A DNA stretch of 64,000 nucleotides. Origin: Cochleicola gelatinilyticus (GTDB lineage: Bacteria > Bacteroidota > Bacteroidia > Flavobacteriales > Flavobacteriaceae). This document shows, one piece after another, positions 53,568-63,846 of this stretch (its first letter is position 1; each line of letters begins with the position of its first letter). The stretch is from positions 310,001 through 374,000 of the forward strand of contig NZ_LRXL01000037.1 of NCBI RefSeq assembly GCF_001637325.1. The letters are read 5' to 3'. A program made the position numbers and the translations under genes. Under the pieces are notes generated by a model. The model did no database searches. It saw only the letters and a list, made by a program, of their open reading frames with translations, and had not been told where the DNA came from.

Positions 53568-54446
53568 ATGCTCACAAAAGTTTACGGGAGTGCCGTCTTT
53601 GGCGTCGAAGCAACAACCATCACCGTTGAAGTTAATGTTGATATTGGAGTAGGTTATCATTTAGTTGGTCTGCCCGACAACGCTATTAAAGAAAGTAATT
53701 TTAGAATAGCTGCCGCGCTTCAAAATAACGGATTTAAAATTCCAGGGAAAAAATTAATTCTTAATATGTCGCCCGCAGATCTGCGCAAAGAAGGCTCTGC
53801 ATACGATCTCACACTCGCAATGGGAATATTGGTAGCCACCCAACAAATCGAGGAAAAACATTCACTTTCGGAGTATATCATTATGGGAGAACTCTCTCTC
53901 GATGGAAGTTTACAGCCTATTCGAGGCGCTTTACCCATAGCGATAAAAGCAGCAGAGGAAGGTTTTAAAAGGTTTATTCTCCCCGAGCAAAATGCAAAAG
54001 AGGCAGCAATTGTTGAAGGCATTTCTGTATATGGGGTGAAAACTATTAAAGAGGTTATCGATCATTTTAATGCAGCCACTTTATTACAAGAAACCATTGT
54101 TGATATGGAGGCGGAATTTTTTAATCACCTAGAACATCCTGAATTCGATTTTGCCGATGTAAAAGGACAGGAATCTATTAAGCGTTGTATGGAGATTGCG
54201 GCTGCTGGAGGACATAATATTATTTTAATTGGTCCACCGGGTTCAGGAAAAACAATGCTAGCAAAACGACTCCCTTCAATTCTTCCACCCATGACGCTTC
54301 AAGAAAGCCTTGAAACCACAAAAATTCATAGTGTGGCAGGACGTACATTAGAGAAAAGTGGTGTAATGACATCTAGACCCTTCCGTAGTCCGCATCACAC
54401 CATAAGTGATGTTATGCATTATAATGTGTGGGTGTGTTCATTTTAA
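53568..54446 (+). pseudogene. yifB: yifB/comM-family ATPase gene, cut by a mobile element
   Basis: The frame encodes the N-terminal ChlI-like domain (for example MSPADLRKEGSAYDLTLAMG, ILPEQNAKEAAIV) and the start of the AAA+ domain with Walker A GPPGSGKTM near residue 223. At residue 282 the conserved sequence SPHHTISDV is followed by MHYNVWVCSF and a stop instead of the expected Mg-chelatase Walker B segment. An intact protein has about 510 residues. ComM promotes branch migration in natural transformation. Loss is due to insertion of the element that begins at about 54405; the missing 3' part should lie beyond the right edge. Confidence 0.9.
54393..54413. other. Candidate attachment site (left junction of the element in yifB)
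   Basis: Homology to YifB ends inside this stretch. CATCAC (54393-54398) and GTGATG (54406-54411) form a perfect 6-bp inverted repeat around ACCATAA, as expected for the crossover site of a serine recombinase. It encodes HHTISDV, among the most conserved residues of the family, so similar sites exist in most hosts. The exact crossover and the other junction are not visible. Confidence 0.6.
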
Positions 54447-55265: not shown

Positions 55266-55293
55266 TATATTTGAATTGTCAAACAATTTAAAA
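55266..55293 (+). promoter_or_regulatory. Promoter and operator-like palindrome of the recombinase gene
   Basis: TATATTTG (55266-55273) matches the Bacteroidetes -7 element TAnnTTTG. It runs directly into AATTGTCAAACAATTT, which contains the dyad ATTGT-CAA-ACAAT. The same -7/dyad block occurs at 58638 in front of another gene of the element. The dyad would lie over the transcription start, the usual place of a repressor site. Confidence 0.65.
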
Positions 55294-55302
55294 TTACACA
55301 TT

Positions 55303-56982
55303 ATGTTAGCTATCTACACACGATTATCAAGAGAAGATGATGATTCAACTTCTATCAAAAACCAAATTAGAGAAGGTAAAGCATTCGCTAAACTTCATAA
55401 TAACAAATCCTTTGAAATTTACAATGAAGGTGAAGGAATATCCGGAACACTTTCAGTTGAGAATCGACCTGCATTAGACCAACTTATTAAAGATATTATA
55501 TCTAAAAAAATTACCGTTATCTGGATGCGTAATCAAAACAGATTAGAACGTTCCACCTACACATATCATTACTTTATCAAATATGCAAAAGAAAACAATA
55601 TAAGCGTTTATTTTGGAGATAAGGGCAAGTTAGATTACAATGACCCAACTACTTATTTACAAGGCTCTATACTCTCTGCTATTAATCAATACGCAGCCGA
55701 TTTACAATCACATCAAACAAAAAAATCATTACTCGATAATGCAAAAGAAGGAAAGTTCCACGGAATACCACCTTATGGTTATAAAAAGAATGAAAATAGG
55801 GTAGTGGTAATCGATGAAGAAGAAGCCAAAGTAGTTAGGAGAATCTATGCATTATCATTAGAAGGTAATGGTCAAAGTAAGATAGCTGAATTTCTCACAG
55901 CAGATAATATCCCAACTAGATATAATAAAATTGGAAAGGGAACACTAACAACCACAAATAAATTCACAAAAGAAAAAACCACTACCAAAAAATCTAATAT
56001 AACTTGGAGCGGTAACACTATCCGGGGAATTATTACCAACACAGTTTATAAAGGTGAGAAATTATATAAAGGAGAAATCTTTAAGATTGAGCCAATTATA
56101 TCTGCTGAATATTGGCAACAAGTAAATGATAACTTAAAGAATAATAGAAATACTAGCGGAGCAAAAACAAATACTTATAATTATCTTCTCAAAGGATTAA
56201 TTAGATGTGGAAAATGTGGTAGAAACTTTTACGGCAGAACAAGAAAAGATAAAAAAGACCATTACTATATGTGTTCTTCAAAACGTATCAAAAATGAAAA
56301 CTGTGGCAATAGAAGTATTAATATTGATTTTATTGAAAATTTTATATGGAATCAGTTTTTTACCAATGGTTTATTGAGAGATAGGATTGAAGCATATTAT
56401 GATAATTCAGACGAAAAACAACTTCTAAAACAATTCGCCGGGGAATTAAAAAAACATAATACAGATAAAGAAAACTTACTTAAAGAAAAATCTCAAACGA
56501 CAAAATATCTAGTTAAAGGAATTTTGGAAGAAGATGAAGCAGACCAACAATTAATTAGAATAAGAAAACAATTAAATGAAATTGAAACTAAAATATTAAA
56601 CACTGAAAGTAACATCGATTTCTATAAAAACAAATCCCAATCAGTAGAAGAAATAACAGCAGACTTAACAAACATAAAAAAGGATGCGACCTTTAATGAT
56701 AAAGAAATATTGGTGAATAATTATATTCAAAATATCAAAGTACTATTCCAATACGATAATTATATAATCGATGTGGAAGGTTACGGTTTAAATACTAGAA
56801 TAATTTATGAAGTAGATAGAAACTACAAATATATATCTGAGGTTGATAAATTATATTACAGATGGTTGGAAGAAAGAAAGAAAGGAACCATAAAACTCAA
56901 ATTTGAAGAATATATTGATAATGATATTAATAACTCCAGTTTTTACCAAATGCCGGGGGAAAAGAAAATAACAATCAAATAA
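55303..56982 (+). CDS. Large serine recombinase (integrase)
   Basis: From the ATG at 55303 (MLAIYTRLSREDDDSTSIKN) the product has 559 residues; a longer ORF would start before the promoter/operator. The resolvase domain (residues 1-150) has the active-site Ser in YTRLSRED and the helix with QGSILSAINQYAADLQS. A recombinase domain (about 165-300), a zinc ribbon (RCGKCGRNFYG, YYMCSSKRIKNENCG) and a coiled coil follow. It probably drives integration into, and excision from, yifB. The gene reads away from the left junction. Only 5 bases separate it from the next gene. Confidence 0.93.
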   Translation: MLAIYTRLSREDDDSTSIKNQIREGKAFAKLHNNKSFEIYNEGEGISGTLSVENRPALDQLIKDIISKKITVIWMRNQNRLERSTYTYHYFIKYAKENNISVYFGDKGKLDYNDPTTYLQGSILSAINQYAADLQSHQTKKSLLDNAKEGKFHGIPPYGYKKNENRVVVIDEEEAKVVRRIYALSLEGNGQSKIAEFLTADNIPTRYNKIGKGTLTTTNKFTKEKTTTKKSNITWSGNTIRGIITNTVYKGEKLYKGEIFKIEPIISAEYWQQVNDNLKNNRNTSGAKTNTYNYLLKGLIRCGKCGRNFYGRTRKDKKDHYYMCSSKRIKNENCGNRSINIDFIENFIWNQFFTNGLLRDRIEAYYDNSDEKQLLKQFAGELKKHNTDKENLLKEKSQTTKYLVKGILEEDEADQQLIRIRKQLNEIETKILNTESNIDFYKNKSQSVEEITADLTNIKKDATFNDKEILVNNYIQNIKVLFQYDNYIIDVEGYGLNTRIIYEVDRNYKYISEVDKLYYRWLEERKKGTIKLKFEEYIDNDINNSSFYQMPGEKKITIK

Positions 56983-56987
56983 TTAAT

Positions 56988-57479
56988 ATGTCACTACCAA
57001 TAACGCCATCACTACCAACAGACAATCTATATAAGTTCCTAGCAATATTTGGATTAATACTTGTGATATTCTCATTGTATACATCCTTTTACAGCGTAAG
57101 AGATAGCTTAAAAGAATCTGAAAATTTAGTAGATGAAACCTATTATAAAATTATAGAAGCAATGGGTAATAGAAATCTTACTAAATCAAATGAAAATTAC
57201 AATAAAACTATTGAAACAGATTCATTAGGAAATGCATTATTGGTACAAGTCAAAGAGGGAAAAGAAGAAATTGCAAGAATAAAGTCAAAAACAATAGAGA
57301 GAAATAATAAAGCATTAAATTATATATTCTTCTTGGGGATGTTAATGATGGTTTTTGGATTTTATTTATGGTATCAAAGAGTTCAGAAACCTATAGATAG
57401 TTTAACACAATTACAATTAGCAAAACTGAAAATTGAAATACTTAATAATGTTCCATCTGATACAGAAGAAGAAAAATAA
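56988..57479 (+). CDS. Membrane protein encoded with the recombinase
   Basis: The product has 163 residues with two hydrophobic spans (LYKFLAIFGLILVIFSLYT near residue 20; LNYIFFLGMLMMVFGFYLWY near 115) separated by a charged helical region. No named family recognised. It is 5 bases after the recombinase stop, so the two are co-transcribed. Confidence 0.65.
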   Translation: MSLPITPSLPTDNLYKFLAIFGLILVIFSLYTSFYSVRDSLKESENLVDETYYKIIEAMGNRNLTKSNENYNKTIETDSLGNALLVQVKEGKEEIARIKSKTIERNNKALNYIFFLGMLMMVFGFYLWYQRVQKPIDSLTQLQLAKLKIEILNNVPSDTEEEK

Positions 57480-58965: not shown

Positions 58966-59505
58966 ATGACAGGTTCAATATATATAGATTATAACAAAGC
59001 ATTACACAAAGGTTTAAAACTAATTAAATCAAAAGAGAATCCAAACTTCGGACTATTAATTATCTGTGGTATTAATTTAGGATTACGCATCGATGATTTA
59101 TTACAACTAACTTTTGACCAATTGAAACAAGATAGTTTTACTATAGAAGAAGGTAAGACAAAGAAGAAGCGAACACTAAAAGTAAATGATGCGATTAAGA
59201 ATGCTTTAAAGCACTTTGAAGATGATATAACATATCAGTTAGGTGGTAGTCCATTTACATCTCAAAAGGGTTCTGTGTATTCTGTACAGCACATAAACAG
59301 GTTAATGAAGAAATATTTTAAGGGTAAGGTAAGTTCACATAGTTTGCGTAAATCATTTGGAAGAAGGGTTTGGTTAAATGATAACCAAAGTGAACGTGCA
59401 TTAGTTTATTTATCTCAGTTACTAAATCATTCATCTACACACACTACCCGTACTTATTTAGGAATCCAACAAGAAGAATTGGACAACATATATATGAACT
59501 TATAG
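58966..59505 (+). CDS. Minimal tyrosine recombinase (catalytic domain only)
   Basis: The product has 179 residues, about half the length of a phage integrase. It has Arg in NLGLRIDDLL (Arg I), HSLRKSFGRR (His-x-x-Arg), the LNHSS box (second His) and Tyr in TRTYLGIQ. The N-terminal arm- and core-binding domains are absent, as in small Bacteroidetes recombinases. It may act in resolution or DNA inversion and not in the main integration step. Start at ATG 58966 is preceded by an AT-rich leader. Confidence 0.85.
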   Translation: MTGSIYIDYNKALHKGLKLIKSKENPNFGLLIICGINLGLRIDDLLQLTFDQLKQDSFTIEEGKTKKKRTLKVNDAIKNALKHFEDDITYQLGGSPFTSQKGSVYSVQHINRLMKKYFKGKVSSHSLRKSFGRRVWLNDNQSERALVYLSQLLNHSSTHTTRTYLGIQQEELDNIYMNL

Positions 59506-60995: not shown

Positions 60996-61784
60996 TTACC
61001 AGTACAGCTCTTTCCAATCAAAGTTGATTATCTCACAGACAGGAGAAACACCCTTCCAATCTTTCTTATAATATCCCGTATCAATTCCACTATTGAATAT
61101 TGGGTCATATTCAGTTTCTTTTAAAAACTTCTTTACTTTTCTACTTGGTTCTAATCCATTTGGATTATATCCTTTGGAATCTAATCTTAAATCACAGAAA
61201 CCTTGTTTGAAGGTATCATTAGAGAATTTAAATGGTGTACTGTTCTGTGGTATTAGAAAAGTTCCATAATCGGCTATTTGTTCACCTATTTCAATTGTGA
61301 TAAATTCAAATTCTTTTCCCTTATATTTGATTTCTTTAAGAACATCATTATCCAATCCAGTTTTAATCTTTCCAAAAGGTGGGTTTGAAATTACTTGGTC
61401 AAAGTGACCAAAGGATTTGTAATCAAATATTGATGCATTTAACCAATTTGCTTCTGGAAGTAGTTTCTTTCCAACTCTTACATACTCTGAATTGAGTTCT
61501 ATACAAGTAACATCACATTTTTTATAATGATATGCGAAGAAAGATAGTATTCCGATTCCTGCGCATAGGTCTATTAGTTTGCAGTCATTAATTATTTCTA
61601 ATGAGAAATCTTCTGCTAATCCCTGTGGGGTGAAAAATGCACCGGCTTGTGAATTAATGGAAGTGGCTGATTCGTTCCAGTTGTTATATACAAATAATTT
61701 ATCATCCCACGTTAGGGTATCTTTCTTTAATAGTTCTTCAGCTTCATTATGTGCTTTAAATTGTGCTTTTGTAAGTTTTGCCAA
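60996..61784 (-). CDS. Orphan N6-adenine-type DNA methyltransferase
   Basis: The product has 262 residues. The SAM-binding motif I is LIDLCAGIGILSFFAY (near residue 70) and the catalytic motif IV is SNPPF (near 133). NPPF/Y enzymes methylate exocyclic amino groups, mostly adenine in DNA. No restriction endonuclease lies nearby, so it probably protects the element or marks its DNA rather than acting in restriction-modification. Convergent with the gene at 60689. Confidence 0.8.
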   Translation of the reverse strand: MAKLTKAQFKAHNEAEELLKKDTLTWDDKLFVYNNWNESATSINSQAGAFFTPQGLAEDFSLEIINDCKLIDLCAGIGILSFFAYHYKKCDVTCIELNSEYVRVGKKLLPEANWLNASIFDYKSFGHFDQVISNPPFGKIKTGLDNDVLKEIKYKGKEFEFITIEIGEQIADYGTFLIPQNSTPFKFSNDTFKQGFCDLRLDSKGYNPNGLEPSRKVKKFLKETEYDPIFNSGIDTGYYKKDWKGVSPVCEIINFDWKELYW

Positions 61785-61826: not shown

Positions 61827-62522
61827 TTAATTATCTCTTAACTTATTTAGAGCCGTTTTAAATGCTTCATTTTTTTGTAGCTTCTCAATTGAAGTGTGAA
61901 AGATTTGGTTTATTCTTTGGTGAGATAAACCATATTTAGAAGCCTGCTGTTTATGTATTATAGGCTTCTTCATCCCCAAACCTAAGGTTTCGATTACTAC
62001 AGTTGCATACCTTTCTTTTTTTAGATTTTTTTTAATCAATTCAATTAAGTAATCTTCATTTTTTTCATCGATATAATCTTTGGAAGTATCTTCAATTGAA
62101 TCCTCAAATTTTGTTTTCCCATCTTCATTAACCATTATTGATAAATCGCTAAAATGTGAAGTAAATGGTACATCTTGTTTTTCGTAATTGGTTTGCATCT
62201 TTCCAATTAATGCATACGGTCTATATCTTATCCAATCCCAAACATTTCTTTCCATACAGATTTTTGCGTAAGATGGGAATGATGCAGCAGCTTGAACGTT
62301 ATAGTTTTTGATAGCAGGGATTAATCCACCAAGTGCCGGAGAGAATAATTCATCTGGACTATATTGTGATGTGGTTGCGTATTTGGTGGCTACTTTTAAT
62401 GCAAGTGGTAATTGTGAGCAAGCAATTTTGTTTTTATTCTTATCTCTATCTATGAATAATTCATCTATTTCTAATTGAGATAGTTTGACATAGTTTTCTG
62501 TAACGTATTGGTTTAAGTTCAC
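61827..62522 (-). CDS. Element-encoded sigma-70-family factor
   Basis: The product has 231 residues. Region 2 is recognised in LALKVATKYATTSQYSPDEL and FPSYAKICMERNVWDWIRYR, matching the DLIQEG.IGL..A and FSTYA..WI pattern. A region-4-like HTH lies at ASKYGLSHQRINQIFHTS near the C-terminus. It would direct RNA polymerase to the element's own promoters, perhaps for late genes beyond the window. No anti-sigma gene is seen next to it. Confidence 0.75.
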   Translation of the reverse strand: MNLNQYVTENYVKLSQLEIDELFIDRDKNKNKIACSQLPLALKVATKYATTSQYSPDELFSPALGGLIPAIKNYNVQAAASFPSYAKICMERNVWDWIRYRPYALIGKMQTNYEKQDVPFTSHFSDLSIMVNEDGKTKFEDSIEDTSKDYIDEKNEDYLIELIKKNLKKERYATVVIETLGLGMKKPIIHKQQASKYGLSHQRINQIFHTSIEKLQKNEAFKTALNKLRDN

Positions 62523-62536
62523 TTTTCATTGTGGTA

Positions 62537-62653
62537 TTATTTTGTGATGTTTTGGTTAGCATCATTATTTACTCTCAGAATATTATTTATTCTCAGTTCT
62601 GTATTCTTTTGTTCAGCTCTCAATTGGTCTAATTTTTCTAATACTTCTTCCAT
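62537..62653 (-). CDS. Small coiled-coil protein
   Basis: A 38-residue frame (MEEVLEKLDQLRAEQKNTEL, then RINNILRVNNDANQNITK) whose ATG overlaps the stop of the next upstream gene (TAATG). The heptad-like Leu spacing supports a coiled coil. Coupling makes it probable that it is translated. Confidence 0.6.
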   Translation of the reverse strand: MEEVLEKLDQLRAEQKNTELRINNILRVNNDANQNITK

Positions 62654-63846
62654 TATGCTGTTTTATTTTTTAAATAAGTTATTATTTTGAATCTATCATT
62701 ATTTGAGTAGTTTACACCTTGCTTAAATTCTCCAATTTGGATTAGGTATTTATCTATCATCTCTATTTTCCCAAGATTCATCGGAAGGTTCAAAATGTCC
62801 ATATTAATCTTATCAGTATTTTCTACTTTGGTTTCATTTTTAAATGTGAAACTATCATCCACCATTTTTCGAGGTCTGTTTATTGGGATTACTTTTTCAT
62901 CATATCCATCTTCAAATGGTAGTAACTTTTCTTCTTTAATTTCTTCCGGTAAATTTGGAATTATGTTACTTACATCGGAAATTATTTTTTCCCATTGCTT
63001 TTTTACTTTTCCAACGCTCGATAGTGCTTTTTCTTTTTCAAAGTTATAAGTTCTAAATTCTCCAGATAAAACACCATCTTTAAGAAATTTGATAATTTTT
63101 TCTTTTTGATTTGGGTTAGCACACTCAAAACGTTTCAATTCATTGAGGTAATTATTTATAAGTGCAAATAACTCATCTTGAAGGACTTTATCTTCTTCAG
63201 CTTGCTTTTTCTTTTCCCTATTTGCTTTTGCTTCTTCTCTTAGCTGTTTTCTTTTAGCTTCTTCTTTTTTCATTTCGACTTTTACTTGTTCAATGGTTGT
63301 ACAAGATTTAGCGAGGGTATCTATAATTCCTTCGTAATTTGATAGGGTAGAAGGATTAAATGACCTTTTAAGGGCTATTATGTCATCTTTAAGGGATGGT
63401 TTCTTTTCGATTATCTCGGTTTCGGTTAGTGTATTTTGCTTAATGGTATTTCCAAAAGGTTCATTTTGAGCTATCTTGATTTTCGTTGACGTTTCTTTCA
63501 TTGACTTGGTCTTTTTTCTAATTTCAGAAGGCTCATTTTGAGCTATCTTGAATTCGTTATAAATAGTTGCTTTTCTGTTTTTGTATTGCTTTTTCTTTTG
63601 GGTAATATTCTTAACAAAATCGGTTTTTATAATCCCTTTCTTTTCGAGTTGAGTAATATTTCTTTTTATGGTTGAGAATGGTGTACCCAATTCTTCAGCT
63701 ATTTCCTTTTGTGTCTGATAACAATATTTTCCGTTAAGTTGAAAGCTTAATAAATAGCCTAATATTACTTTGTGTGTAGTGGTTAAATCCTTCCTTTTCC
63801 TTAATTCGGTAGGAATCTTGATGAATGTTTCTTTTTCTTGTGTCAT
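62653..63846 (-). CDS. Winged-helix replication-like protein
   Basis: The product has 397 residues. The N-terminal 80 residues are a winged HTH (TTTHKVILGYLLSFQL, KEIAEELGTPFSTIKRNITQ), as in plasmid or phage replication initiator (DnaD/RepO-like) proteins. A short internal repeat KIAQNEP occurs twice (near residues 98 and 124), and a Lys/Glu-rich coiled coil lies at about 185-235. It probably initiates replication or recruits the helicase for the element. It is the first gene of the minus-strand operon with the small ORF and possibly the sigma factor. Confidence 0.65.
   Translation of the reverse strand: MTQEKETFIKIPTELRKRKDLTTTHKVILGYLLSFQLNGKYCYQTQKEIAEELGTPFSTIKRNITQLEKKGIIKTDFVKNITQKKKQYKNRKATIYNEFKIAQNEPSEIRKKTKSMKETSTKIKIAQNEPFGNTIKQNTLTETEIIEKKPSLKDDIIALKRSFNPSTLSNYEGIIDTLAKSCTTIEQVKVEMKKEEAKRKQLREEAKANREKKKQAEEDKVLQDELFALINNYLNELKRFECANPNQKEKIIKFLKDGVLSGEFRTYNFEKEKALSSVGKVKKQWEKIISDVSNIIPNLPEEIKEEKLLPFEDGYDEKVIPINRPRKMVDDSFTFKNETKVENTDKINMDILNLPMNLGKIEMIDKYLIQIGEFKQGVNYSNNDRFKIITYLKNKTA

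Follow-up and report, generated by a model that had tools for sequence, protein, structure and literature searches.

A highly divergent sigma-70-family protein encoded in the replication operon of a temperate Bacteroidota prophage, and its likely role in phage transcription

Sequence comparisons lead us to regard the product of one prophage gene as a real, highly divergent protein of the sigma-70 family, whose most likely role is to redirect host RNA polymerase in the lytic cycle, as part of a middle-to-late cascade. The window, by which we mean the whole stretch of 64,000 nucleotides that was analysed, is G000:C36:310001-374000, and the flanking contig was read as L002 and L003. The gene in question is the following:

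61827..62522, minus strand: sigma-70-family gene, 231 aa, GTG start

A sequence-only reading of this DNA had proposed a sigma-70-like factor borne by an integrated element, and this proposal was confirmed by profile matches, by the alignment with RpoD and by the prophage context. As regards the GTG start, the N-terminus aligns from residue one with a homolog which begins with ATG. Searches with the single sequence were positive but weak: TIGR02937 matched residues 32-217 (E 2.1e-10), the PHROG_351 family 'RNA polymerase sigma factor' residues 9-217 (5.3e-7) and RpoD_Cterm residues 127-220 (4.7e-6), Pfam region 2 matched residues 38-100 at 1.2e-3, under Pfam's cut-off, and Pfam region 4, taken alone, gave 0.31. 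We also used a two-row profile made of the protein and its homolog in the IMG/VR contigs L038 and L039. Sigma factors made up 32 of the 33 PDB matches to this profile, nearly all of them via region 2, with sigma-K at the top (E 6.8e-6), so that the profile search for sigma regions which the earlier reading had recommended was positive against TIGR02937, PHROG_351 and the PDB alike. An hhalign comparison with Bacteroidota RpoD gave Prob 97.8 and E 1.2e-12 over columns 4-227, the best of 40 column-shuffled profiles reaching E 0.026. Region 2 of the sigma-70 family is thus recognised through the PDB matches and through hhalign, with the shuffles far weaker. When the search was reversed and the profile was run against 294 Bacteroidia genomes, it matched the focal ORF and frames of about 290 aa; all of those checked (19/19) were RpoD, and they were matched at columns 138-225, that is, in the region 4 part. 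The helix-turn-helix of region 4 is accordingly recognised from these RpoD matches, from RpoD_Cterm and from TIGR02937, which extends to residue 217, and both regions can be read in a protein of 231 residues, as had been claimed. An AlphaFold model from a two-sequence input had a pLDDT of 49, and the PDB matches listed for it were sigma factors or entries containing them; such fold matches carry little independent weight. We base the identification as a sigma factor on the profile matches, including those in the PDB, on the RpoD alignment as compared with its shuffles and on the homolog in a second viral lineage.

Region 2 occupies approximately residues 30-104 and region 4 residues 153-220. 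The claim that there is no region 3 holds for the sigma-3 domain, which is missing, but not for the linker, since residues 131-146 (VNEDGKTKFEDSIEDT) align with the region-3.2 linker of sigma-A (EDG..EFGDLIEDS). The sequence-only reading would have given up the sigma assignment if the region-2 residues in contact with the -10 element were absent. Here the picture is divided: F82 and Y85 are kept, corresponding to the F and Y that are conserved in region 2.3 of RpoD, but the W-W dyad of that region has become I88-C89. The altered dyad does not refute the sigma identity, because those solved sporulation sigma factors that are also without W-W have R-C at the equivalent place. The changed residues of region 2.3 suggest, as far as sequence can tell, a changed -10 preference. 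Could a protein of two domains be an ECF (group IV) factor? Despite this layout it does not belong there, since its profile finds RpoD frames and not ECF frames. ECF genes, moreover, usually adjoin an anti-sigma gene, and none was recognised among the neighbours, which are rep, the ORF of 38 aa and the gene of a DNA methyltransferase; the earlier reading had likewise noted no anti-sigma partner.

Among known proteins, Bacteroidota RpoD (approximately 287 aa; host copies L084 and L085) resembles the phage protein in that region 2, the region-3.2-like linker and region 4 align full-length, whereas the phage protein has only 19% identity to it, has no sigma-3 domain, has W-W replaced and is encoded in a phage replication operon. 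The sporulation factors sigma-K and sigma-E (PDB 8vjl, 8b3z) are the top region 2 matches among solved structures and have lost W-W too, but the likeness seen is in region 2, the phage protein is without sigma-3 domain, and the host is no spore former. The PBSX factor Xpf of Bacillus subtilis is likewise a small, prophage-linked sigma factor that has no domains other than sigma-2 and sigma-4 (PMC10141391). Xpf is, however, listed as group IV (ECF-like), whereas our protein groups with RpoD by profile; the two are set apart here by description (PMC10141391).

The gene belongs to an operon with these other members:

62653..63846, minus strand: replication initiation protein (rep), 397 aa; Pfam HTH_36 1.4e-8, PHROG 428/270 4e-10
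62537..62653, minus strand: 38-aa ORF between rep and the sigma gene, read from sequence
60996..61784, minus strand: phage DNA methyltransferase, 262 aa; PHROG_3820 3.5e-88

This minus-strand run (rep, 38-aa ORF, sigma, methyltransferase) is tightly packed, and it contains the element's own methyltransferase and replication protein just as described earlier. Its first gene, rep, encodes a protein with a winged-helix N-terminus, and the stop of rep overlaps the start of the 38-aa ORF (TAATG). The methyltransferase, downstream of the sigma gene in the same orientation, is 45-48% identical to myophage proteins. The operon points away from the late operon, the two being divergent. In the gap between them there are iteron-like repeats (GGCTCAAAATGAGCTATCT, L002:11229-11340), and a repeated IAQNEP peptide in Rep suggests iteron copies inside rep itself (62653-63846), similar to an origin of the lambda O type.

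The element in which this operon lies is bounded and integrated by the following features:

53568..54412, plus strand: 5' part of the interrupted host comM (yifB); Pfam ChlI, Mg_chelatase
54408..54412, no strand: attL core GATGT inside comM; joined flanks restore the comM frame
55276..56982, plus strand: large serine recombinase; Pfam Resolvase, Recombinase, Zn_ribbon_recom
58966..59505, plus strand: short tyrosine recombinase, 179 aa; Pfam Phage_integrase 2.1e-13

The prophage measures 32,890 bp and runs beyond the window into L002 and L003. Its attR core is at L003:13797-13801, the shared core is 5 bp long, and joining the flanks at GATGT restores a comM frame of 513 codons. A longest-repeat search was misleading here, and the core was located by comparison with comM instead. 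The large serine recombinase, which adjoins attL, is the probable integrase and probably starts at an internal ATG, since a promoter box of the host type extends to 55273. The short tyrosine recombinase, which served as query for finding related phages, matches gp53 of Cellulophaga phage phi46:1 at 63%, is present in L038, L039 and L040 and is one of the group's best conserved proteins; it is too short for an arm-binding domain, and integration apparently rests on the serine recombinase. The virion and lysis genes include a Clp-type head protease, portal, terminase large subunit, tape measure and endolysin. Many virion genes match phi46:1 in the same, largely syntenic module order (TerL 53%, portal 34% and protease 35% identity). 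From the virion and lysis genes, the comM integration and this synteny we conclude that the element is, by its gene content, a complete temperate tailed-phage prophage, and its integrase, replication, packaging, head-tail and lysis modules together place it with the temperate Caudoviricetes. The sequence-only reading had seen it as close to a satellite or a phage-plasmid. In such a case the sigma factor would be used to exploit a helper phage or for extrachromosomal maintenance. Apart from the replication initiator and the adjoining iteron-like repeats, which would suit such an element, the evidence makes this extremely improbable: the complete structural, packaging and lysis gene set, with terminase, portal, protease, tape measure and endolysin all present, excludes a satellite, and nothing seen here suggests a phage-plasmid, an element that usually has partition genes: a serine recombinase has integrated the prophage in comM, and the proteins scanned included no recognised partition system.

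The late operon of this temperate phage begins with a further gene of interest:

C36:374959-375432 = L002:11459-11932, plus strand: second sigma-like gene, 157 aa; TIGR02937 5.8e-9

It sits just beyond the window and is followed directly by the gene of a 75-aa Mor-like protein and then by head genes. The L039 homolog of the second sigma protein scores 34 bits against Pfam region 2, above the cut-off of 24, and PHROG_234 (late sigma transcription factor) matches only this L039 protein, weakly (0.006). A profile of the 157-aa protein and its L039 homolog finds host frames of about 180 aa, all 15 of the 15 checked being ECF sigma factors, and aligns to the ECF set at E 1e-7, the best of 40 shuffles giving 0.018. 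The closest fold matches are also ECF sigma factors, none of which reaches E 0.001. By these sequence profiles the second protein groups with the ECF factors; a match to it in G147 was a chance match. The Mor-like protein is matched by Pfam Mor at 6e-5, slightly under its cut-off, and by a PHROG late transcriptional activator at 4e-4. It belongs to a small family found near head or tail genes in the seven Bacteroidota phages and prophages compared, and in three of these (the focal phage, L039 and L040) a sigma-like gene stands immediately before it, which in L040 is a full RpoD-like sigma factor of 265 aa. A fusion of the second sigma and Mor-like proteins by readthrough or frameshift was considered and rejected, as the frame relation differs between two phages, and translational coupling is preferred.

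How far is the first sigma protein conserved? Its homolog in IMG/VR (L038:14800-15492 = L039:10273-10965) is 31% identical over the whole length, with a pairwise BLAST E of 3e-28. There the gene order is focal homolog, second sigma, Mor-like gene, head protease, so that both sigma genes and the Mor-like gene are placed, with respect to the head genes, as they are in the focal phage, and on this sequence evidence the sigma pair is conserved between very divergent phages. The proteins are about 31-39% identical, whereas the replication gene and the terminase are different ones, and the two sigma genes have the same direction in L038/L039 but are divergent in the focal phage. Other matching IMG/VR contigs, L080 and L083, appear to be of the same lineage, and the very divergent pair was found in only this one other virus lineage. 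A peptide-pattern scan of 84,980 GTDB genomes revealed no close homologs of the focal protein, and 301 genomes of the family and 398 of the order contained none either, the only matches being weak ones to host sigma factors. No homolog was found in phi46:1; its gp54 (87 aa), at the place of the second sigma gene, was not accepted as a homolog (25 columns, Prob 43%). In the relatives identified by portal (G023, G155, G187, G197, G711 and G724), no sigma-like gene was noticed among the ORFs near the head genes. The one match in a phage collection, MT837884, seems to lie on a fragment of bacterial DNA and to be a sporulation-type sigma factor of bacteria.

In Bacillus, sporulation-like sigma factors of phages can act on host genes. 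In phage SP10 such a sigma factor was dispensable, and another altered host gene expression (PMC9429907). It may be, then, that our protein is an auxiliary factor which steers host genes (stress, surface, development) and is dispensable for the phage's own programme, and with 15 sigma factors above the family cut-off the host has plentiful sigma-controlled regulons. We think this unlikely. The gene lies in the replication operon and not at a prophage end, a distant phage has retained its homolog next to the sigma gene of the late operon, and the protein has no close counterpart among the sigma factors of the host.

The host-type promoter consensus is TTG-N17-23-TAnnTTTG. Boxes of this kind precede the integrase in the focal phage, and in L039 they precede an early gene as well as the recombinase. 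Before the virion genes none was found, which, the numbers being small, is weak evidence. The whole prophage contains 6 such boxes against 10.7 expected, which is not above expectation. The promoter motif of the sigma factor itself, which the sequence-only reading had advised looking for in the rest of the element, did not emerge, as an all-against-all comparison of intergenic DNA gave no shared phage motif above Markov shuffles. Two motifs picked post hoc, TTGAC-N18-TATTTAT and CTACATATTTAT, seemed to be shared with phage L039 and were set aside on that account. Is the protein perhaps a sigma-derived inhibitor or decoy, which occupies core polymerase or stops host transcription without promoter recognition, or a decaying relic? 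The empty motif search would agree with this, as would a region 2.3 without its tryptophan dyad and a weak region 4. A relic, however, would hardly have an intact frame in which region 2, linker and region 4 are retained at 31% identity to the homolog of the other phage, and we regard this explanation, too, as improbable.

We consider it probable that the protein is a divergent sigma-70 initiation factor of a temperate phage, which brings host RNA polymerase to phage promoters, with the late operon as its likeliest first target. Early phage genes would be read by the host sigma factor from host-type promoters (TTG/TAnnTTTG). After induction or infection, the phage factor would be made together with Rep from what we presume to be the lytic operon, would use its region 2 to bind the core RNA polymerase of the host and would shift it from the host-type to the phage promoters, most likely those of the divergent late operon first. 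The second, ECF-like sigma factor (157 aa) and the Mor-like activator (75 aa) may then sustain the transcription of virion genes. We infer this two-step role, with its core binding, promoter switching, cascade order, targets and division of labour, from the sigma homology of both proteins, from the rep operon and from the position of the second sigma and Mor-like genes at the head of the virion genes; the pair kept in L038/L039, the RpoD-like sigma gene before the Mor-like gene in L040 and the placement of promoter boxes point the same way. The missing phage motif, the absent W-W dyad, the weak region 4, the pLDDT of 49 and the few host-type boxes count against it. A more specific relay, which we put forward only tentatively, is that the RpoD-related factor without sigma-3 opens the promoter of the ECF-related one, and that the latter forms a two-part late-transcription factor with the Mor-like protein as its small, DNA-binding partner.

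Phage sigma factors as such are already known. T4 gp55 and SPO1 gp28 and gp34 likewise serve middle or late genes and are essential for infection (PMC9429907), but T4 and SPO1 are large virulent phages, unlike this temperate one. According to one survey, sigma factors were absent from 86.6% of phage genomes, while 11.7% carried one, 1.1% carried two and 0.7% carried three (PMC9429907). We found no report of phage-encoded sigma factors in Bacteroidota phages in the open-access papers searched, the coverage of which is incomplete. What is new is a strongly divergent, RpoD-related type that lacks sigma-3, the fact that it is paired with an ECF-like sigma gene which adjoins a Mor-like gene, and the occurrence of such a pair in a small temperate Bacteroidota phage. 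If the relay is true, it would provide a concrete model, open to experiment, of how temperate phages control their middle and late genes in a phylum whose promoters are unusual, and it might supply an orthogonal sigma-promoter tool for use in Bacteroidota.

Some minor observations concern other genes of the prophage and its integration site. A 163-aa protein adjoining the integrase (56988-57479) has probable membrane helices and a weak match to PADLOC PycTM (6e-4), and is possibly a cargo gene. In several other Flavobacteriaceae (L071, L074, L075 and L076) comM is also interrupted, by elements in which a serine recombinase occurs together with the short tyrosine recombinase known from the focal phage; in the parts of them that were read, virion genes were not noticed. 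At the right end of the prophage there is a 494-aa helicase-like protein (L003:11404-12888), and from its matches to the PADLOC models AbiO (4e-174) and Nhi (6e-170) the prophage appears to possess a gene for defence against phages. Another of the comM-inserted elements encodes a copy of this protein with 54% identity (L071:13789-15258).
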